DNA of 64,000 nt from Devosia sp. 66-22 (GTDB lineage: Bacteria; Pseudomonadota; Alphaproteobacteria; Rhizobiales; Devosiaceae), in NCBI GenBank assembly GCA_001899065.1, contig MKUZ01000009.1:1-64000 (forward strand), given 5' to 3'. Shown one piece after another: positions 4,741 to 36,537 of this stretch (positions are counted from its first letter, which is position 1; every line of letters starts with the position of its first letter). The notes beneath the pieces were generated by a model, which saw only the letters and a list, made by a program, of their open reading frames with translations, searched no databases and had not been told where the DNA came from. The position numbers were made by a program, and so were the translations under genes.

Positions 4741-6429
4741 ATGACCTCCAAATCAGATCTTCTATCGAGCACCGCCATTGAGACGGTGAGCGACCCGATT
4801 GCGGCCGACTTCCGCAACTTCCTCTGGCTCGTGTGGCAGCACCTCAATCTGCCCGAGCCCACCCCCGTCCAGTACGACATCGCGCGCTACCTCCAGAAGG
4901 GGCCGAAGCGCTGCGTGATCGAGGCGTTCCGAGGTGTCGGCAAGAGCTGGGTCACCTCCGCCTTCGTTTGCTGGCTGCTCTACCGCAACCCTCAGCTCAA
5001 CATCATGGTGGTGTCCGCCGCCAAGGACCGCGCGGACGCCTTCTCAACGTTCACTAAGCGGCTCATCCACGAAATGCCCGAGCTGCAACACCTGCGCCCA
5101 CGACCGGGCCAGCGTGACAGCAACATCGCCTTCGACGTGGGGCCGGCAGGCGCGAGCCAGTCGCCCTCCGTGAAGTCGGTCGGCATCACCGGCCAGCTCA
5201 CCGGCTCCCGCGCGGACGTGATTATCGCGGATGACGTGGAGAGCCTTAACAACGCCATGACGGTCACCATGCGGGACCTCCTGGCCGAACGCATCAAAGA
5301 GTTCGACGCCGTGCTCAAGCCCGGTGGCCGCGTGATCTACCTCGGCACCCCGCAGACGGAAATGTCCATCTACAACCGGCTCCCCGAGCGCGGCTACGAG
5401 ATCAGGATTTGGCCGGCGCGCGTGCCCGAGAACCCGGACAAGTATCACGGGAGGCTTGCGCCCTTCGTCGTGGACATGATCGTCCGTGGCGCGCAGGCCC
5501 GCGACCCAGTGGACCCGTTGCGCTTCCACGACCTCGACCTCATCGAGCGCGAGGCGAGCTATGGGCGCTCCGGCTTTGCCTTGCAGTTCATGCTCGACAC
5601 CTCGCTGTCGGACGCCGACCGCTACCCGCTCAAGTTCCGCGACCTCATCGTGACTTCTGTGGACCCGCGCATGGCCCCCTCCAAGCTCGTGTGGTGCAAC
5701 GACCCCGACCGCATGTACCTCGACCTCCCTATGGTTGGCCTCAACGGCGACCGCTTCTTCCGCGCCATGTGGGCCGCGAAGGAAATGGAGGAGTTCACGG
5801 GGGCGGTCATGGTCATCGACCCATCGGGCCGAGGCAGGGACGAGACGGCCTACGCCGTGGTGAAGAGCCTCAACGGGTTCCTCTACTGCACCGCCTCGGG
5901 CGGCTTCGTGGACGGCTACACTGAGGCGACCCTCAAGGCCCTCTCGGTCGTCGCGGCTCGCGAAAAGGTCAACCACGTGATCGTGGAGGCGAACTTCGGT
6001 GACGGCATGTTCACCCAGCTCCTCAAGCCGGTGATGAACCGCGTCCACCCGGTGACAATCGAGGAGGTGAAGCACTCGGTCCAGAAGGAGCGCCGCATCT
6101 GCGACACCTTAGAGCCGATCATGAACCAGCACCGGTTGGTGATCTCCGAGGCGGTCATCAAGGCAGACGCGGCCTGCGAGGAGCCGACCCGCCAGCTCAT
6201 GTACCAGCTTGCCCGCATCACCCGTGACAAGGGCGCGCTAGGCCACGACGACCGCCTGGACGCTCTGGCCATGGCCGTGGGCTACTGGGCCGAGAGCATG
6301 GCTCGCGACACGGACAAGGCCCACGAAGAGCACTTGGAGAAGCTCCGGGACGAAGAGCTGGAGGCATTCATCAACCTCGCGTGCTTCAACGGCATGCGGG
6401 AGGAGGCTGCCCAGAACTGGGCCGAATGA
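4741..6429 (+). CDS. Large terminase subunit (T7 gp19-like DNA packaging ATPase/nuclease)
   Basis: This 562-residue protein is the DNA-translocating motor of virion packaging. Walker A lies in EAFRGVGKSW (about residues 61-70) and Walker B in DVIIADDVES (about 159-168). The RNase H-like nuclease domain begins with VIDPSGRGRDETAYAV near residue 359 and carries GHDDRLDALAMA near residue 501. The length matches podoviral gp19. It is separated from the small subunit by 115 bases with no obvious gene, and it is the last gene of the late cluster. The nuclease and ATPase residues look intact. Confidence 0.93.
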   Translation: MTSKSDLLSSTAIETVSDPIAADFRNFLWLVWQHLNLPEPTPVQYDIARYLQKGPKRCVIEAFRGVGKSWVTSAFVCWLLYRNPQLNIMVVSAAKDRADAFSTFTKRLIHEMPELQHLRPRPGQRDSNIAFDVGPAGASQSPSVKSVGITGQLTGSRADVIIADDVESLNNAMTVTMRDLLAERIKEFDAVLKPGGRVIYLGTPQTEMSIYNRLPERGYEIRIWPARVPENPDKYHGRLAPFVVDMIVRGAQARDPVDPLRFHDLDLIEREASYGRSGFALQFMLDTSLSDADRYPLKFRDLIVTSVDPRMAPSKLVWCNDPDRMYLDLPMVGLNGDRFFRAMWAAKEMEEFTGAVMVIDPSGRGRDETAYAVVKSLNGFLYCTASGGFVDGYTEATLKALSVVAAREKVNHVIVEANFGDGMFTQLLKPVMNRVHPVTIEEVKHSVQKERRICDTLEPIMNQHRLVISEAVIKADAACEEPTRQLMYQLARITRDKGALGHDDRLDALAMAVGYWAESMARDTDKAHEEHLEKLRDEELEAFINLACFNGMREEAAQNWAE

Positions 6430-7840: not shown

Positions 7841-7858
7841 CTATGCACCATCGCATAG
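7841..7858 (+). promoter_or_regulatory. Early-region 18-bp motif, copy 1
   Basis: CTATGCACCATCGCATAG matches the six-copy consensus at 17 of 18 positions. In this copy the ends form a perfect 6-bp inverted repeat (CTATGC / GCATAG) around ACCATC, and a TTGACT lies 4 bases upstream at 7832-7837. It may be a phage RNA polymerase promoter (ATAG at its end recalls T7-class promoters) or a repressor operator over a sigma-70 promoter. Confidence 0.55.
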
Positions 7859-7991
7859 AACGGTGGCCAAGCAAGACGCTAACGCCTTCGCTGGGACGCC
7901 TGAAACGGGGTCAGTTCTTTGACAGTGTGAAGAGACCTAATCCCCCGCAAAGCGCCGTGAGGCGTGGCTTAGCCGGGCGGGGCAGATAGGC

Positions 7992-8050
7992 GGATAGTCG
8001 CCCAGTGAAGCGCTGGGCCTGATGAGGGGCACGCATGCCCGAAACTATCC
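7992..8050 (+). ncRNA. Hammerhead ribozyme 1 (type III)
   Basis: All conserved core positions are present. The 5' strand of stem III is 7992-7998, the cleavage base C17 is at 7999, stem I is 8000-8005 paired with 8013-8018 (6 bp, 7-nt loop), and CTGATGA is at 8019-8025. Stem II is 8026-8031 paired with 8036-8040 (one bulged G, CGCA loop), GAA is at 8041-8043, and stem III closes with 8044-8050 (7 perfect pairs including A15.1-U16.1). Predicted self-cleavage falls between 7999 and 8000, 74 nt before the start of the conserved phage gene at 8074. The 3' strand of stem III is also the first part of motif copy 2. Confidence 0.9.
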
Positions 8051-8062
8051 ACCATCGCATAG
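8045..8062 (+). promoter_or_regulatory. Early-region 18-bp motif, copy 2
   Basis: CTATCCACCATCGCATAG is the best representative of the six-copy motif. It begins inside stem III of hammerhead 1 and ends 11 bases before the ATG at 8074. If it is a promoter with the start near its final G, it would give a second, very short leader for the 8074 gene that bypasses the ribozyme. Confidence 0.55.
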
Positions 8063-8073
8063 GATACACGCAA

Positions 8074-8967
8074 ATGGCCACGCATGACGAAGTTGCCCAC
8101 AACTGGGCGCACCAGACTGGGCGCAAGCAGAACGGTCCCAACATGCACTATCGGGATACCGTGGTTTTCTCCTACGGGTCGCACTTCCCGATTGCCCGTT
8201 ACGTTCCCGATGCAAGCGGTGCCCGCGTGGTGCTCTTCAACTCGGCGTCCTACTCGGTGAGCACGTCCAAGCATCAGGGCAAGGTGAGGCGCGCAATCCC
8301 TCACGGGGTGACAGTGTTCACGGTGCCGCGCCTCGGGCTCAATGGGTACGGCTGGGACCATGAGCACGCCGCGAACCACGCCCACCTGCTAGCAGAGGCG
8401 GAACAGGCGTTCACCTTGGCGACGAAGGCCCGCAAGTATGGCCCGATGCACCTAGAGCGTGCCGAGCGGTTCATCGGCATGGCCAATGCCTACAGTGACG
8501 CCTTCGGGCTGGGCAAGCCGGTGGCCACCATGCCCGCGAACATGGAAGAGGTGCGGGCCAATGTCGCGGCCCGTGAGGCGGCAGAACGTGAGGCACGCCG
8601 CGCGGCTGATGAGGCACGCGCCAAGCGGGCGGCAGAGGTTGAGGCCCAGCGCACCGAGCAGGCTATGGAATGGGTCAAGGGTGAGCGAGACCACGCGCCC
8701 CACACCTCTCTGCCCTATGTGCGGGTCAAGGGCGACACGCTGGAAACCTCCTACGGGGCCAAGGTGCCGCTAACCGCCGCGCTGGGGGTCTTCCGGCTGG
8801 CCGAGCGGTGCGCCGAGCGGGCCACGGCGTTCACGCCTGATGAGACCATCAAGCTAGGCGACTTCCGGCTGGACCACATCAGCCCCGAAGGCACCATCCG
8901 CGCCGGTTGCCACCTCATTCCGCTGGACCGCGCCCGCATGGCCGCAAGCCTCGCCGGTTTGGCCTGA
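8074..8967 (+). CDS. Conserved phage early protein of unknown function
   Basis: This 297-residue protein begins MATHDEVAHNWAHQTGRKQN. Its N-terminal half (SYGSHFPIARYV, VLFNSASYSVSTSKHQGKVR, AIPHGVTVFTVPR) resembles a phage-wide family of unknown function. Residues about 150-215 are a charged helix (NMEEVRANVAAREAAERE and onwards) that could be a coiled coil. An in-frame ATG at 8035 lies inside stem II of the ribozyme, so 8074 is the better start, with AGGA about 9 bases upstream. It is the first sizeable gene of the early block and the first cistron behind a hammerhead. Confidence 0.8.
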   Translation: MATHDEVAHNWAHQTGRKQNGPNMHYRDTVVFSYGSHFPIARYVPDASGARVVLFNSASYSVSTSKHQGKVRRAIPHGVTVFTVPRLGLNGYGWDHEHAANHAHLLAEAEQAFTLATKARKYGPMHLERAERFIGMANAYSDAFGLGKPVATMPANMEEVRANVAAREAAEREARRAADEARAKRAAEVEAQRTEQAMEWVKGERDHAPHTSLPYVRVKGDTLETSYGAKVPLTAALGVFRLAERCAERATAFTPDETIKLGDFRLDHISPEGTIRAGCHLIPLDRARMAASLAGLA

Positions 8968-8968
8968 T

Positions 8969-8986
8969 CTATCCACCATCGCATGC
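8969..8986 (+). promoter_or_regulatory. Early-region 18-bp motif, copy 3
   Basis: This copy (CTATCCACCATCGC then ATGC) matches the consensus at 16 of 18 bases. It starts one base after the stop of the 8074 gene. Its last three bases are the 5' strand of stem II of hammerhead 2. A transcript started here would therefore begin almost exactly with the ribozyme. Confidence 0.55.
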
Positions 8987-9053
8987 GAAACCTAGGGGGC
9001 CATGAAGGTCCCCGATGGTCGCCCTATGGGTCGCGCCTAGGGCCTGATGAGCA
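8984..9053 (+). ncRNA. Hammerhead ribozyme 2 (type II)
   Basis: This is a circularly permuted hammerhead with open stem II. Stem II pairs TGC 8984-8986 with GCA 9051-9053. GAA is at 8987-8989. Stem III pairs 8990-8992 with 9017-9019 and, beyond an internal loop, 8995-9001 with 9007-9013. C17 is at 9020. Stem I pairs 9021-9026 with 9038-9043 and is extended by GG/CC around a GTCGCG loop. CTGATGA is at 9044-9050. Predicted cleavage is between 9020 and 9021, 55 nt before the ATG at 9076. Confidence 0.88.
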
Positions 9054-9075
9054 GCGCACCAAAAGGAATAGAGCA

Positions 9076-9522
9076 ATGTTCTCCAAAGGCTTTGGCCGCT
9101 ACGTGGTCGAGGGCGACGCTATCGCTTGCGAGGTGGACGGGTTCACGGTCACCGCGACCCTGTACCGCGACGATTGCGGCGATAGGCCCGATGAGCGGCA
9201 GGACGGTTTCTGGCCCAGCCTCGACCCCCAGTCTGCCGGGTACATCGGCCCGAAGAGCAAGCGCACCCTCGCGCGCCACTGGGCCAAGGCGAAGCGTGTC
9301 ATGGATGCTTGGCTGGCCGATGAGTGGCACTACTACGGGGTGAGCCTCACGGTTGAGCGCGAGGACGTTAAACTGGTCCACCGCTATGAGGTGGCCCTGT
9401 GGGGCATTGAGGGCAACTACCCGGACGACGACAACGCCTATCTCGGGGAAGTCGCAAACGAGTTGCTGGACGAAGCGCTGGGCATGGCCCGTGAGCGTAT
9501 CTCCCGCCTGTGCGCCGCGTGA
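9076..9522 (+). CDS. Phage early protein of unknown function
   Basis: The protein has 148 residues, starting MFSKGFGRYVVEGDAIACEV. An in-frame extension upstream would translate the ribozyme, and a good AAGGA precedes this ATG, so 9076 is chosen. It is acidic and mixed alpha/beta, with a conserved-looking segment WLADEWHYYGVSLTVERED and a C-terminal helix (EVANELLDEALGMARERISR). There is no signal peptide or membrane segment. I do not recognise the family; similar small proteins are frequent in phages and may contact DNA or host enzymes. Confidence 0.72.
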   Translation: MFSKGFGRYVVEGDAIACEVDGFTVTATLYRDDCGDRPDERQDGFWPSLDPQSAGYIGPKSKRTLARHWAKAKRVMDAWLADEWHYYGVSLTVEREDVKLVHRYEVALWGIEGNYPDDDNAYLGEVANELLDEALGMARERISRLCAA

Positions 9523-9526
9523 CGCC

Positions 9527-9628
9527 ATGGAGCACATCAGCGCGGAAACCGTGACGTTTGGCGTCCTCGTCATCGGCACCCTCTTGCTCTGCCTCGCGGC
9601 ATGCTTCGTGCCGTTCGACGCCGATTAG
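9527..9628 (+). CDS. Tiny single-pass membrane peptide (prophage)
   Basis: This 33-residue frame starts 4 bases after the preceding stop. After MEHISAETV comes one hydrophobic helix (FGVLVIGTLLLCLAACFVPF) and a short acidic end. It lies in the same transcription unit and fills the space before hammerhead 3. The short length makes it uncertain, but a clean transmembrane segment and tight packing support it. Confidence 0.45.
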   Translation: MEHISAETVTFGVLVIGTLLLCLAACFVPFDAD

Positions 9629-9635
9629 AACAACA

Positions 9636-9693
9636 TTGCGAAACGGTCCAAGGGGCCGTCGCGTGGGGGTCGCGCCTCACGCCTGATGAGCAA
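9636..9693 (+). ncRNA. Hammerhead ribozyme 3 (type II)
   Basis: Stem II pairs TTGC 9636-9639 with GCAA 9690-9693. GAA is at 9640-9642. Stem III pairs 9643-9649 with 9653-9659 (7 bp, 3-nt loop). C17 is at 9660. Stem I pairs 9661-9668 with 9675-9682 (8 bp, one G-U) around the same GTCGCG loop seen in ribozymes 2 and 4. CTGATGA is at 9683-9689. Every core base is canonical. Predicted cleavage is between 9660 and 9661, 59 nt before the ATG at 9720. Confidence 0.92.
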
Positions 9694-9719
9694 GCGTAAA
9701 GCCCGAGAAAGGCACACCC

Positions 9720-9935
9720 ATGTCCCTATCTATCCACCATCGAATTTCTATCGCGGACGGCGCAAAGAACCGCGCCGAGATCGCCCTCGCGGCACTCGAA
9801 GCCCGCGACCCGCATGCCGCCCTCGGGGTGAGCGGACGCCGCCTGCAAAAGGTGATCGAGGACGCCCGCGCCGAACTGCGCTACCTCGGGGACCTCGCCA
9901 TGGTCGCGCGGCACCTCTGGAACGGTGCAGCATGA
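9720..9935 (+). CDS. Small phage protein of unknown function
   Basis: The protein has 71 residues and is largely helical and basic (MSLSIHHRISIADGAKNRAE, then GRRLQKVIEDARAELRYLGD). AGAAAGG lies upstream of the ATG at a usable spacing. Codons 4 to 9 overlap motif copy 4, so the start of the protein and the motif are the same DNA. It overlaps the methyltransferase-like gene by ATGA, so the two are coupled. Confidence 0.6.
   Translation: MSLSIHHRISIADGAKNRAEIALAALEARDPHAALGVSGRRLQKVIEDARAELRYLGDLAMVARHLWNGAA
9730..9747 (+). promoter_or_regulatory. Early-region 18-bp motif, copy 4 (within coding sequence)
   Basis: CTATCCACCATCG is conserved, followed by the divergent end AATTT (15 of 18 matches). 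It lies at codons 4 to 9 of the 71-residue gene. Loss of the ATAG end and the intragenic position suggest a weak or decayed site. Confidence 0.35.
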
Positions 9936-10564
9936 GCCGGTCCCTCCGCGTTCTCGTCGCCTGCGAGTTCTCAGGCACCGTGCGCCGCGAGTTTGCCGCA
10001 CTGGGCCACGACGCATGGTCCTGCGACCTGCTTCCATCGGATGACCGTTCTAATCACCACATCGTCGGTGACGTGCGGGACATTCTCAATGACGGCTGGG
10101 ACCTGTTGATGGTCGCCCACCCGCCGTGCACGCGCCTCTGCAACTCCGGGGTGCGCTGGCTCAACGTGCCGCCTCCGGGTCGCACCCTCGAAAGCATGTG
10201 GGCCGAACTGGACGAAGGCGCGGAGCTTTTCTCCGCGTGCTGGAACGCCCCCATCGAGCGTATCGCGGTCGAGAACCCCGTGATGCACAAGCATGCCAAG
10301 GCGCGTATCCGCAACTACGCCGAGCCCGCGCAGAGCATCCAGCCGTGGCAGTTCGGCCATGGCGAGTGCAAGCGCACCTGCCTGTGGCTCAAGGGCCTGC
10401 CGCCCCTCATCCCTACCAACGTGGTCGCGGGCCGCGAGCAGCGCGTGCACCTCATGCCGCCCGGTCCCGACCGATGGAAAGAGCGGTCCCGCTTCTTCCC
10501 CGGCATTGCCAAGGCGATGGCCGAGCAGTGGGGCGGCTGGGCAGAGGAGTGGATGGCAGCATGA
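9932..10564 (+). CDS. DNA cytosine methyltransferase-like protein (prophage)
   Basis: The protein has 210 residues. The N-terminus RVLVACEFSGTVRREFAALG resembles the AdoMet-binding loop of C5-cytosine methyltransferases, and MVAHPPCTRLCNSGVRWL has the PPC catalytic signature. ERIAVENPVMHKHAK fits the ENV-like motif of the family. It is shorter than restriction-linked methylases and lacks an obvious full target-recognition domain. Phages use such proteins to modify their DNA against restriction, though many short relatives are uncharacterised. It is coupled to its neighbours by ATGA overlaps on both sides. Confidence 0.7.
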   Translation: MSRSLRVLVACEFSGTVRREFAALGHDAWSCDLLPSDDRSNHHIVGDVRDILNDGWDLLMVAHPPCTRLCNSGVRWLNVPPPGRTLESMWAELDEGAELFSACWNAPIERIAVENPVMHKHAKARIRNYAEPAQSIQPWQFGHGECKRTCLWLKGLPPLIPTNVVAGREQRVHLMPPGPDRWKERSRFFPGIAKAMAEQWGGWAEEWMAA

Positions 10565-10995
10565 TCGTCCTCCCAATCCTCCCCTCAGATCACCACAACG
10601 GCCCCAATTGCGGGGTCACTGCGGTGGCCGTTCTCGCGGGCGTGCCCTTCGACCTCGCATGGGAGACCGTGCGCCGCCTCGACCCCAAGCGCTCGCCCCG
10701 GTGGCGCGGCACAACGTGGTGGTACGAGCAGCGGGCCGCGCTGCGCCACCTCGGGGCCAAGGTCGAGGAACTGCCACACAAGGGCATGACGCTCGCCAAG
10801 TTCGCGGACCAGCACACGGTCAAAGGTGCCGCCTATCTCGTCAACGTCACGAGCCACTGCATGGCCCTGATCGACGGTGTTCTGGTGGACCAGCGCGGCC
10901 CCATGCCGGTGGCCGAGCACCCCGCGCGCCGACAGCGGGTCAAGTACTCGGCGCGGGTCACGCCGCCCGTAGGTGGTCCCCCCAACCACGATTAG
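10561..10995 (+). CDS. Papain/C39-like cysteine-protease-fold protein (prophage)
   Basis: The protein has 144 residues. The pattern NGPNCGVTAVAVLAGVPF near residue 15 (nucleophile Cys at the start of a helix), then VTSHCMALIDGVLVDQRG near residue 100 (His, followed by Asp), matches the Cys-His-Asp layout of papain-like and C39-like folds. There is no signal peptide. Such proteins are common in phage accessory regions, where the substrate is rarely known. It overlaps the methyltransferase-like gene by ATGA and is the last cistron before hammerhead 4. Confidence 0.55.
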   Translation: MIVLPILPSDHHNGPNCGVTAVAVLAGVPFDLAWETVRRLDPKRSPRWRGTTWWYEQRAALRHLGAKVEELPHKGMTLAKFADQHTVKGAAYLVNVTSHCMALIDGVLVDQRGPMPVAEHPARRQRVKYSARVTPPVGGPPNHD

Positions 10996-11013
10996 GCAGC
11001 CGCTAGAGCGGCA

Positions 11014-11081
11014 TTGCGAAACGCCTCCCGGCTCCGGCTGGGGGCGTCGTCCACGGGTCGCGCCGTGGGCCTGATGAGCAG
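11014..11081 (+). ncRNA. Hammerhead ribozyme 4 (type II)
   Basis: Stem II pairs 11014-11017 with 11078-11081 (one G-U). GAA is at 11018-11020. Stem III pairs 11021-11028 with 11040-11047 (8 bp, one G-U). C17 is at 11048. Stem I pairs 11049-11056 with 11063-11070 (8 bp) around a GTCGCG loop. CTGATGA is at 11071-11077. Stem sequences differ from copies 2 and 3 but pairing is kept, which is covariation. Predicted cleavage is between 11048 and 11049, 59 nt before the ATG at 11108. GCGAC at 11081-11085 could pair with the loop. Confidence 0.92.
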
Positions 11082-11107
11082 CGACACACCCAACATTGGA
11101 GACGACT

Positions 11108-11332
11108 ATGCACGACCGCATTGAGGCGGGCGACAGCACCTTCGCGCGCCCCTCTACCACCGCCCTCAAGGACCGGCTGGCTGAGCTACAGCTCGACCGC
11201 GCCGTGACCCTCATGGCCGACGACTTCGCCATGACTAACGGCAGCGTCCGCAAGATCGACCGCCAGATGGACGCGATCAGGAACCAGCTCCGCGACATGG
11301 AAGCGGCGGCGAAGGTCGAGGGGAGGGGGTGA
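11108..11332 (+). CDS. Small helical phage protein of unknown function
   Basis: The protein has 74 residues starting MHDRIEAGDSTFARPSTTAL. A TTG at 11096 is in frame, but it forms part of the GGAG-containing ribosome-binding site, so the ATG at 11108 is preferred. The rest is one or two charged helices (LKDRLAELQLDRAVTLMADD; KIDRQMDAIRNQLRDMEAAA), probably a coiled coil. Its stop overlaps the ATG of the next gene (TGATG). Confidence 0.6.
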   Translation: MHDRIEAGDSTFARPSTTALKDRLAELQLDRAVTLMADDFAMTNGSVRKIDRQMDAIRNQLRDMEAAAKVEGRG

Positions 11333-11784: not shown

Positions 11785-12195
11785 TTGATTGCTCGAAAGG
11801 TCGAACGATTGTTCACTTCATACTTTAGGCTACCCTTCCATCTCGGCAGCGTTTTCGTCGAGACCCTCACGGTCAACGTGGGTTTCGGCCTCGAACGGCA
11901 CCCGCAGGACCTCATCATCTACCTTTGGCGGGTCCAGATCACGGCCTCTGATGAGCGGGATAGGGGGAAGCCTTCACCCAACACCTTGCGAGCACTGGAC
12001 GAAGCGGCTACCGTTCCACCCTCGCATAGGTCCGCGAATAGGAAATTTAGCCATGGCCACCAAGAAGGATGGACTGGGGAGCGGTGCTGCGCCGACTGCG
12101 ACTGCTGCCGGAAACCACTCAACGATAACGAGGGCGCTGGCCCTCATCAGAATGTTCCGTCAACTGTCGGGCGAAATGCCCATGCAACAGGCTGA
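11785..12195 (+). CDS. Possible phage gene overlapping the MarR-like gene
   Basis: A frame from TTG 11785, preceded by GGGAGGG, encodes up to 136 residues. The first 60 (LIARKVERLFTSYFRLPFHL, then HPQDLIIYLWRVQITASDE) have the G/C-rich third codon positions of a real gene and a beta-rich pattern. The last 48 codons overlap the MarR-like gene in another frame and look non-coding there, with many Cys. The real product may end earlier through a frameshift, or this may be a decayed gene. Function unknown. Confidence 0.4.
   Translation: MIARKVERLFTSYFRLPFHLGSVFVETLTVNVGFGLERHPQDLIIYLWRVQITASDERDRGKPSPNTLRALDEAATVPPSHRSANRKFSHGHQEGWTGERCCADCDCCRKPLNDNEGAGPHQNVPSTVGRNAHATG
12012..12029 (+). promoter_or_regulatory. 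Early-region 18-bp motif, copy 6
   Basis: The copy matches the consensus at 15 of 18 bases, with CCACC and TCGCATAG intact. It ends 23 bases before the ATG of the MarR-like regulator gene, a spacing that suits a promoter or an autoregulatory operator. Confidence 0.5.
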
Positions 12196-12559
12196 CATTC
12201 TGCTCACCATCGCGGGCTCTCCCGGACTGACGATGGGGGACGTGTCGAAGGCCACCGGCCTTTCGCAGTCGTCCGTGTCGCGGAATGTCGCCGCGCTCTC
12301 GACCTTCCATCGCCTCGGGCAGCCCGGCATGGGATTGGTCACGGCGGAGGTTGACCCGCGCGAGCCGCGCCGCCGCGTGCTCTTCCTCACTACCACGGGG
12401 CAAGTGCTCGTGACACGGCTCATGCGCACCTACGACCCCAACTTCTCCCTCGGGGCGGACATTGATGCCCGCCTCGGAATGAGCGTCGTTCGGGTCGGTG
12501 AGGAAGCTGGTCGGCGTGGGCCTGGGGCCAACGTGAAGGTCCCTAAAATCACCCCCTAG
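12053..12559 (+). CDS. MarR-like winged-helix regulator (prophage)
   Basis: The protein has 168 residues, starting MATKKDGLGSGAAPTATAAG. Residues about 30-115 form a winged helix: ITRALALIRMFRQLSGEMPM, QQADILLTIAGSPGLTMGDV, KATGLSQSSVSRNVAALS (recognition helix), and a wing with EPRRRVLFLTTTG. This is the MarR/IclR-like DNA-binding layout. It lies next to the tRNA and integrase, where lysogeny regulators are usual, and copy 6 of the early motif is directly upstream. It is therefore a candidate repressor for the six motif copies. AGGA lies about 10 bases before the ATG. Confidence 0.75.
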   Translation: MATKKDGLGSGAAPTATAAGNHSTITRALALIRMFRQLSGEMPMQQADILLTIAGSPGLTMGDVSKATGLSQSSVSRNVAALSTFHRLGQPGMGLVTAEVDPREPRRRVLFLTTTGQVLVTRLMRTYDPNFSLGADIDARLGMSVVRVGEEAGRRGPGANVKVPKITP

Positions 12560-12561
12560 GG

Positions 12562-12645
12562 TGGTGCGCGTGGAGGGACTTGAACCCCCACGCCTTACGG
12601 CGGCAGGACCTAAACCTGCTGCGTCTACCATTTCGCCACACGCGC
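12562..12645 (-). tRNA. Phage-encoded tRNA-Leu (anticodon UAG)
   Basis: Read on the minus strand, GCGCGTG (12645-12639) pairs with CACGCGC before discriminator A (12565) and an encoded CCA (12564-12562). The anticodon stem-loop has TAG in a TTTAGGT loop, a long variable arm CGCCGTAAGGCG marks tRNA-Leu, and the T-loop reads TTCAAGT. It sits between the MarR-like gene and the integrase, on the strand opposite to both. The same anticodon occurs in the host tRNA-Leu fragment used as attachment site. Confidence 0.92.
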
Positions 12646-12660
12646 AACGATGGAGGGACT

Positions 12661-13857
12661 ATGACAGTCGTCCAGCGTGGTCAATCATTTCAGGCCACGG
12701 TCTACTACTCGAAGATCAAGCCCGGTCGGTGGAGGCGGCAGTTCCCCACCGAGATCGAGGCGAAGCGCTGGGAGCTGGACAGCACCGAGGCGCTACAAGC
12801 TGGCCGCTTGCCCGACATGGGCGAGGGGTCGAACACGCTCGGCCACAGCTTCCGCCCCACCACGGTGGGCGACCTCATGGAATACAAGTGCCGGCACCAC
12901 TGGGGCAACATGAAGGGCGGCAAGTCGGCCTGCGCCAACGCCCGCCACATGGCCAAGATACTCGGCCCCGAGACGCCGCTCGGCAAGGTGGACAAGATCG
13001 CCATTGACCTCGCGGTCGAGGAACTGCGCAAGCAGGGATACCCCGAGAGCACCATTAACAAGAAGCTCTCGACGGTACGCTTTGCCTTTGACGAGGCGGT
13101 CAAGGACGGCTGGCTGGCGAAGGCCCCATCTGTGCCGTTTTTCAAGCAGGGCGAGGGGCGCATGAAGGTGTTCACGCCGGCCGAGGAAAGGGCTCAGCTC
13201 GACTGGTGCCGGGCGACCGGGGACATGGAGCTGGAGGACTACATCGTCACCAGCTACGACCTCGGATGGAGGCAGGCGGAGGCCCTCACGTGCAAGCCAC
13301 GCAACCTGGAAACGGATACCTACGTGGTCACCCTCTGGGGGCAGACTACGGACGTGGACAACGGGACCAAGGCCGGCAACACGCGGCGCATCCCGCCGAC
13401 CCCGAGGGTGAGGGCCATCCTCGAACGCCGCGCCGAGGGCAGGGGTCCCAACGCCCCCATCTTTGACATGGACCAAGACGAGTTGCAGCGGCGCTGGGGC
13501 CGCATGCGGACGGCGCTAGGCTTCGCCCTCGACCCCGAGTGGGTGCCGCACGCCATGCGCCACACGTTCTGCTCGCGGCTGGTCAACGACCACAACGTGA
13601 ACGTCGCCGTTGTCCAGAAGCTCGCCGGCCACCTCCGCATCGAGACGACGCTCAAGTACGTCCACGTCGATGAGCGCGCCATGGAGAAGGCCATCGCAGC
13701 CCTTGCGGGACAACGGAATAGCGTCTATTCCCCCACGCCACAAAGCAACCCGGCTGCGCCACACGCCACTGTGGCTAGCCACATCACCCAAGTGGCGGAT
13801 ACTATAGATCAGGAGACGGCAGCTAACGGTATGGAATTGCAGGGAAAAGCGGCCTGA
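12661..13857 (+). CDS. int: Tyrosine-recombinase integrase
   Basis: The protein has 398 residues. An N-terminal arm-binding and SAM-like core-binding region (to about residue 165; FRPTTVGDLMEYKCRHHWGN) precedes the catalytic domain. Catalytic residues are visible: R204 (DLGWRQAEAL), H297 and R300 (HAMRHTFCSRL), H324 (AGHLRI) and Y333 (TLKYVHVDER). A C-terminal tail of about 50 residues follows. GGAGG lies 7 bases before the ATG. It ends only about 20 bases from the tRNA-Leu fragment, as expected for an integrase beside attR, and would catalyse integration and excision at tRNA-Leu. Confidence 0.95.
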   Translation: MTVVQRGQSFQATVYYSKIKPGRWRRQFPTEIEAKRWELDSTEALQAGRLPDMGEGSNTLGHSFRPTTVGDLMEYKCRHHWGNMKGGKSACANARHMAKILGPETPLGKVDKIAIDLAVEELRKQGYPESTINKKLSTVRFAFDEAVKDGWLAKAPSVPFFKQGEGRMKVFTPAEERAQLDWCRATGDMELEDYIVTSYDLGWRQAEALTCKPRNLETDTYVVTLWGQTTDVDNGTKAGNTRRIPPTPRVRAILERRAEGRGPNAPIFDMDQDELQRRWGRMRTALGFALDPEWVPHAMRHTFCSRLVNDHNVNVAVVQKLAGHLRIETTLKYVHVDERAMEKAIAALAGQRNSVYSPTPQSNPAAPHATVASHITQVADTIDQETAANGMELQGKAA

Positions 13858-36448: not shown

Positions 36449-36537
36449 CGGCTGTCATCCCAGCGAAAGCTGGGACCCAGCTCTCACCTTGCGCCAGCGG
36501 ATGAATGGGTCCGAGCTTTCGCTGGGATGACAGCCGG
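36449..36537. repeat. Palindromic intergenic repeat element 2 (REP-like)
   Basis: Two inverted arms of about 30 bases at 36449-36478 and 36507-36537 share the core tgtcatcccagcgaaagct and its complement, separated by 28 bases. This is a classic REP/BIME-like unit. From 36540 to 37219 I see no further gene or clear signal. Confidence 0.75.

Follow-up and report, generated by a model that had tools for sequence, protein, structure and literature searches.

A row of four predicted hammerhead motifs at early gene boundaries of a T7-like Devosia prophage, and similar predicted arrays in related temperate phages

The first 14 kb of the window, a 64,000-nt stretch of Devosia sp. 66-22 (the first 64,000 nt of contig MKUZ01000009.1, here C9; whole genome 4.36 Mb), hold part of a T7-like prophage comprising tail fibres, a T7-type terminase, an early region, a MarR-like regulator, a tRNA-Leu and a tyrosine integrase. 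Four hammerhead ribozyme (HHR) motifs, HHR1 to HHR4, lie at gene boundaries of the early region (Table 1). The terminase has relatives at 70–72% identity in the Rhizobium phages RHEph01, TRX32-1 and RHEph21, and gene A, behind HHR1, is 33% identical to RHEph01 gp004. A single-subunit RNA polymerase gene is located on a second contig, C8, ~26 kb from its end; the ends of C8 and C9 probably adjoin. The tRNA-Leu, the likely attachment site, also precedes the integrase in RHEph01, TRX32-1, RHEph21 and the phage LUZ100.

Table 1. Features of the prophage (window coordinates) and of an element in related loci (coordinates of the named locus)
Feature	Position	Strand	Remarks
T7-type terminase large subunit	4741..6429	+	
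18-nt repeat, leader copy	7841..7858	+	palindromic arms CTATGC-N6-GCATAG
boxA-like 11-mer GTTCTTTGACA	7914..7924	+	66 nt before HHR1; single copy in own genome sequence
HHR1, type III (stem III open)	7991..8050	+	cleavage site 7999/8000; descriptor, model R1, fold
18-nt repeat	8045..8062	+	overlaps HHR1 3' edge (stem III 3' strand)
Gene A, behind HHR1	8074..8967	+	phrog_7247, function not known; searched as longer frame 8035-8967
18-nt repeat	8969..8986	+	ends at first bases of HHR2
HHR2, type II	8983..9060	+	cleavage site 9020/9021; RF02276 34.9 bits, genome E 4.1e-5; descriptor
Gene B, behind HHR2	9076..9522	+	homologue in L346 stands behind HHR1 there, 36% identity
HHR3, type II	9636..9700	+	cleavage site 9660/9661; RF02276 44.8 bits, genome E 1.0e-7
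Small gene behind HHR3, 71 aa	9720..9935	+	read from sequence
DNA methyltransferase	9932..10564	+	phrog_757 match
Gene of phrog_3754	10561..10995	+	function not known
HHR4, type II	11014..11087	+	cleavage site 11048/11049; RF02276 52.7 bits, genome E 8.5e-10
Small gene behind HHR4	11108..11332	+	no family match in protein family scans
MarR-like phage regulator	12053..12559	+	phrog_9665; searched as longer frame 11789-12559
tRNA-Leu at integrase	12562..12645	-	tRNA search
Tyrosine integrase	12661..13857	+	searched as frame 12580-13857
GTGGRTAGCA element	L351:13889-14016; L350:15338-15475; L035:6243; L049:5385; TRX32-1 (L025):38563-38700; L352:3410		

CTGATGA and GAA are present in all four motifs, and C17 closes a GTC triplet each time (7999, 9020, 9660 and 11048), with C17-to-ATG spacers of 74, 55, 59 and 59 nt (ATGs at 8074, 9076, 9720 and 11108). 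An earlier sequence-only reading of this DNA had placed four hammerheads with intact cores, these cleavage sites and these leader lengths between the early genes of a T7-like prophage, and all of them were located as described. That reading treated the four alike. HHR2, HHR3 and HHR4 are type II (core CUGANGA, GAA, A15.1-U16.1 and H17, with stems I and III closed and stem II open), and HHR1 is type III (the same core, with stems I and II closed and stem III open) save for a one-base irregularity between A9 and stem II. The motifs stand close together and flank prophage genes, as described for clustered prophage hammerheads (Perreault et al. 2011). Judged by sequence and predicted fold, they are conserved hammerheads at gene boundaries of a T7-like prophage.

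A covariance-model search, which the sequence-only reading had named as a check, bore it out in part. RF02276 finds HHR2 to HHR4, of which HHR3 and HHR4 pass the cut-off of 37 bits and HHR2 falls below it, whereas HHR1 is matched by no Rfam hammerhead model, the cut-off of RF00008 included; the corresponding site in the related record L344 scores 30.3 bits with RF00008 (cut-off 48.5). HHR1 was instead found by a model, R1, built from the type III sites of seven relatives with the window excluded (34.9 bits, E 1.3e-8 in 95.7 kb searched), whose sole other match up to E 1 has E 0.36. Rfam at its cut-offs was inadequate as the sole detector, missing HHR1, HHR2 and all hammerheads later found in RHEph01, TRX32-1 and RHEph21, and we therefore wrote a descriptor of our own. 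Its strict form missed HHR2 and type I sites, and both its strict and its relaxed form missed variant type II sites that RF02276 found. The relaxed form gives exactly four matches in the 64 kb on both strands, namely HHR1 to HHR4 (scores 18–22), and 40 dinucleotide shuffles of the whole window gave four matches in total (scores 9–15). The minimum-energy fold of each isolated segment holds all three helices (4/4); those of HHR1 and HHR2 additionally pair a few core bases, and in a 91-nt piece HHR4 pairs stem II differently. By eye, loop I (UCGCGCC) could form ~3–4 pairs with a GCG in the tail in eight of nine type II sites, including all three of the window.

Related temperate T7-like phages, among them RHEph01 and TRX32-1, also have predicted arrays of this kind in their early regions; the stems covary and the cargo genes differ. 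Read by descriptor and RF02276, with many variant type II sites scoring below the Rfam cut-off, the window has the arrangement III-II-II-II, as do L344, L346 and L347, the last site in each of these three being a variant with an additional U behind the core. III-II-I is the arrangement of RHEph01 and L349, L353 has III-I, TRX32-1 and L042 have II-I, L350, L351 and L049 have II-II-I, and L352 has II-II; a single type was found in L035 (I), L098 (one II) and RHEph21 (III only). In a set of 20 records, RF02276 matches 11 at E up to 0.01, of which seven pass the cut-off. It has no match in RHEph21 and L353, whose sites are of type III or I, in L372, which has one descriptor match, or among the 150 candidates scored, out of 3128, in the large genome that contains L035. 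The slot genes change among relatives, the gene behind HHR2 here having its homologue behind HHR1 in L346.

Pairing is retained across these sites. In the type III sites of the seven relatives no pair cell is left unformed (84/84) and four of 12 pairs have changed on both sides, and sliding the structure by 1–3 columns keeps at most 57%. Among ten type II sites (three of the window and seven of L344, L346, L347 and L098), pairs 1–4 of stem I and 1–3 of stem III are formed in all ten, and five of these seven pairs occur as at least two pair types. The same seven pairs are formed in 156 to 158 of the 158 distinct type II sites on viral contigs among the matches listed, sites that were picked by pattern and descriptor, a choice that favours pairing. 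In the type I site of relatives stem III varies (12 rows, at least three of them duplicates). The earlier claim that the stems covary and were not simply copied thus stands in its first half, the covariation being clearest across relatives. Its second half fares less well: the loop I of the window's three type II copies is common to six type II sites of L344, L346 and L347, and an origin of the window copies by copying is therefore likely.

Several further observations were made on type II sites. The variant with an extra U between core and stem II was seen at 15 sites (e.g., L344:15060-15127; others in L346, L347, L349–L352, L042, L049, L024 and L025), and by eye its loop I (UUGGCA) could pair with a UGCCA in the tail, with a compensating change in L042. 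In four records (L344:13640-13730, L346:14067-14150, L347:12804-12890 and L098:8583-8670) the first type II hammerhead is directly followed by a conserved stretch, CCGGAA...CCGACGATACAGG, which precedes a small open reading frame; a similar stretch without a hammerhead occurs in L353, L053 and L314, and the conserved GACGATACAGG stretch has no Rfam match of its own in L344. Three type II hammerheads stand in a row in a genome of the same order (G292, L097:9250-9882), a locus with no match to the T7-like reference proteins tried. At least seven hammerhead matches each were found in L107, L210 and L257, and at least 11 type II matches lie within 7 kb on one strand of L128 (IMG/VR 3300017605_000570).

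The topologies differ in where a cut leaves its hairpins: type III on the downstream piece only, type I on the upstream piece only and type II one on each. Where joined by another type, type III comes first in 7/7 clade records (window, L344, L346, L347, RHEph01, L349 and L353) and type I comes last in 8/8 (RHEph01, L349, L353, TRX32-1, L350, L351, L049 and L042), the records in both counts being related and not independent. No closing type I site was found in the window, L344, L346 and L347, even at very relaxed descriptor settings. On viral contigs, among the matches listed, six of 62 locus strands with at least two sites mix types, with type III first in five (L107, L302, L317, L318 and L337) and second in one (L327). 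With L107 left out, as its type III site overlaps the type II site that follows, and with the window clade and the RHEph clade taken as one lineage each, type III is first in 6/7 (chance 0.015); this value is generous, L318 and L337 having related terminases and L302 a related RNA polymerase. Distances to genes were counted among the same matches with crude gene calls, leaving out sites inside genes or without both neighbours. A stop codon lies -30 to 40 nt from the 5' edge of the site in 73/107 type I, 53/144 type II and 6/17 type III sites, and a start codon within 60 nt of the 3' edge in 64/107, 66/144 and 12/17, respectively. The direction agrees with the order of topologies, yet type I sites are also close to start codons.

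Upstream of HHR1 the leader carries GTTCTTTGACA, which we take to be a boxA-like sequence and which is suggestive of a putative antitermination element. In the window as well as in 12 distinct relatives (duplicates collapsed), this 11-mer precedes the first position of the array, standing 7 nt before the type III site in L347, L349, L353, RHEph01 and RHEph21 and occurring also in TRX32-1, L350, L351, L352, L035, L042 and L049, all without a type III site. At the leader position L344 has a copy with two mismatches and L346 no recognisable copy, and the exact 11-mer is absent from 125 of the 144 loci obtained by integrase and terminase scans, many of which are distant or short. Its uniqueness in its own genome refers to an assembled sequence that includes no 16S gene. 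In G045, a genome of the same order, it begins 201 nt upstream of a 16S match, and the 22-nt stretch around it (GGTTCTTTGACAATCGAATAGG) is identical in RHEph01; G045, the one of five genomes searched in which a 16S gene was present, is the sole source of this link to rRNA. In relatives without a type III site, another possible structured RNA follows the 11-nt box, with GTGGRTAGCA conserved after a short hairpin. It has no Rfam match in L351 and could be another ribozyme or an antitermination element.

The early region further holds six plus-strand copies of an 18-nt repeat with up to three mismatches (0.02 in shuffles). A close pattern matches 12 times genome-wide, ten of these on the two prophage contigs, three of them on C8. 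From its layout and a weak likeness to the mapped promoter motif of LUZ100, the repeat is probably a promoter of the phage RNA polymerase, and the palindromic leader copy is a possible operator or regulator site, or a promoter.

The reading we prefer, with a probability of roughly 0.8, is that the four motifs are working hammerheads and would divide the polycistronic early message of this prophage, a temperate T7-like autographivirus, at gene boundaries. It draws on matches far above chance, full cores, helices present in the fold, covariation and arrays kept in relatives despite changing cargo, and on the activity of similar arrays in vitro and in Escherichia coli described in the sections of Perreault et al. 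(2011; PMC3088659) used here. We infer that cutting would occur at gene boundaries while the transcript is being made. HHR1 would remove the leader with its boxA-like element, so that the first mRNA would start with a 5' hairpin (stem I). HHR2 to HHR4 would cut between two closed hairpins, leaving stem III at the end of the upstream mRNA and a 5'-OH and stem I at the start of the downstream one. The phage would probably gain separate messages with end hairpins, made without a host nuclease; the array might in this way stand in for RNase III and alter message stability, and the leader might act in antitermination.

A number of results weigh against this reading. Besides the Rfam scores of HHR1 and HHR2, HHR3 takes a competing fold in a 91-nt piece, and the irregularity of HHR1 leaves either a stem II of three pairs or a longer stem II with an additional G next to A9. 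In the related phage LUZ100, whose transcriptome has been mapped, descriptor and RF02276 scans show no hammerhead, and L045, L050, L054 and L357 have no RF02276 match; arrays are therefore not essential to this phage type. RF02276 matches are rare, with five of 397 genomes of the order at E up to 0.001 and two of 19 of the genus at E up to 0.01, the own genome included in both. Against the boxA-like reading of the leader, the 11-mer occurs somewhere in 24 of 31 genomes, a backward control pattern is likewise found in many genomes, and a 16S start lies near it at none of 30 chromosomal loci (four end at a contig end within 100 nt). The 11-mer alone is therefore not specific, and the 22-nt identity carries more weight. 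A consensus scan showed no sigma-70 promoter upstream at its threshold, a TTGACT shortly before 7841 being a weak candidate only.

The ribozymes might be active and serve chiefly to lower early expression, their ends speeding decay and so keeping the early genes low in the lysogen or timing their shut-off. Such a role would suit an operon that, in a temperate phage, immediately precedes the MarR and integrase genes, and RNA might be marked for decay by its 5'-OH and cyclic-phosphate ends. We nevertheless regard it as unlikely, because type II and III sites would give the downstream message a closed 5' hairpin and type I closers would keep hairpins upstream, a layout that looks protective. We think it less likely still that the motifs are borders of modular cassettes, kept as recombination points or hitchhikers for gene swapping with cleavage of little weight. 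Different cargo in equivalent slots of close relatives, homologous genes in different slots and the loop I common to the type II copies of the window, L344, L346 and L347 are what such borders would leave, but the compensatory stem changes point to selection on the RNA fold, and the conserved bases are present in all four cores. That the motifs are decayed or inactive look-alikes, of the kind also listed in the part of PMC3088659 used here, would fit the low Rfam scores of HHR1 and HHR2 and the one-base irregularity, but is very improbable given the core bases in all four, the helices in the minimum-energy folds and the conservation in relatives.

From the definitions of the topologies and their observed order, each coding block is predicted to keep a hairpin at both cut ends. 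A broader proposal, which we advance tentatively and hold somewhat likelier to fail than to stand, is that phage hammerhead arrays are topologically ordered, with type III opening, type II separating and type I closing so that only leader and trailer would be bare, in an operon laid out like a host rRNA operon, in which a boxA-like leader would be followed by ribozymes in place of RNase III. Both the ordering and the box arguments are no more than suggestive.

The early transcript of T7 is cut by host RNase III at hairpins between early cistrons. The cuts predicted here likewise fall between early cistrons, but where T7 uses a host protein enzyme, the RNA of the window should cut itself and leave 5'-OH ends. 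RHEph01, TRX32-1 and RHEph21 (Paadamvirus) share with the window the terminase, MarR, tRNA-Leu and integrase layout, the 11-nt box and early-operon hammerheads, MarR and integrase of TRX32-1 being annotated merely as hypothetical. They differ from it in their arrays: III-II-I in RHEph01, II-I with another element in first place in TRX32-1 and only a type III found in RHEph21. The annotation of these three records names no hammerhead. TRX32-1 was obtained by induction of a lysogen. LUZ100 (PMC10134795), as far as the text used here extends, is likewise T7-like and shows temperate features; it has MarR, tRNA-Leu and integrase, and its phage promoters have been mapped; unlike the window it gave no hammerhead in our scans. 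The words ribozyme and hammerhead are absent from the main text of PMC10134795 and of PMC10783043.

The sequence-only reading had held a serial intercistronic set to be undescribed. Perreault et al. (2011) reported clustered prophage hammerheads and proposed processing to single-gene mRNAs; in the sections of PMC3088659 used here, cleavage was shown in vitro for three arrays, one of which, in a tail, ardA, marR and integrase context, was also shown to cleave in E. coli. Novelty of the serial arrangement is ruled out by that paper. Its arrays, especially the triple array of Agrobacterium tumefaciens, resemble the one described here in that serial hammerheads border small phage genes close to tail, marR and integrase genes and in the frequency of type II. 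The window differs in its four motifs with a type III opener and in that scans of the proteins of ten slot genes named no ardA; ordered topology and a boxA-like leader are absent from those sections of PMC3088659. In excerpts of a 2023 study (PMC10085705), bacterial hammerheads are described as enriched in the neighbourhood of Mu-like phage genes and of other self-cleaving ribozymes, and why they associate with phage genes and with one another is called unknown. In the passages used here, a 2017 review (PMC6155905) still treats what hammerheads do in prokaryotes as an open question. PMC3088659 was the sole paper on such arrays found in the open-access literature, as far as the texts available there reach; subscription papers were outside the scope, and the ordering rule was not searched by name. 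Serial prophage hammerhead arrays and their processing role are thus already known, and the ordered topology and the leader are the points to be followed up; the fixed order of motif shapes may be new. Now that such arrays can be assigned to a defined group of phages, some of them named, and ribozyme topology is predicted to follow operon position, the question of role could be addressed by mapping 5'-OH ends and by core mutants.

Elsewhere in the window, a long inverted repeat at 36450-36535, which the mir-M7 model matches far under its cut-off, is perhaps a terminator or a small mobile element.

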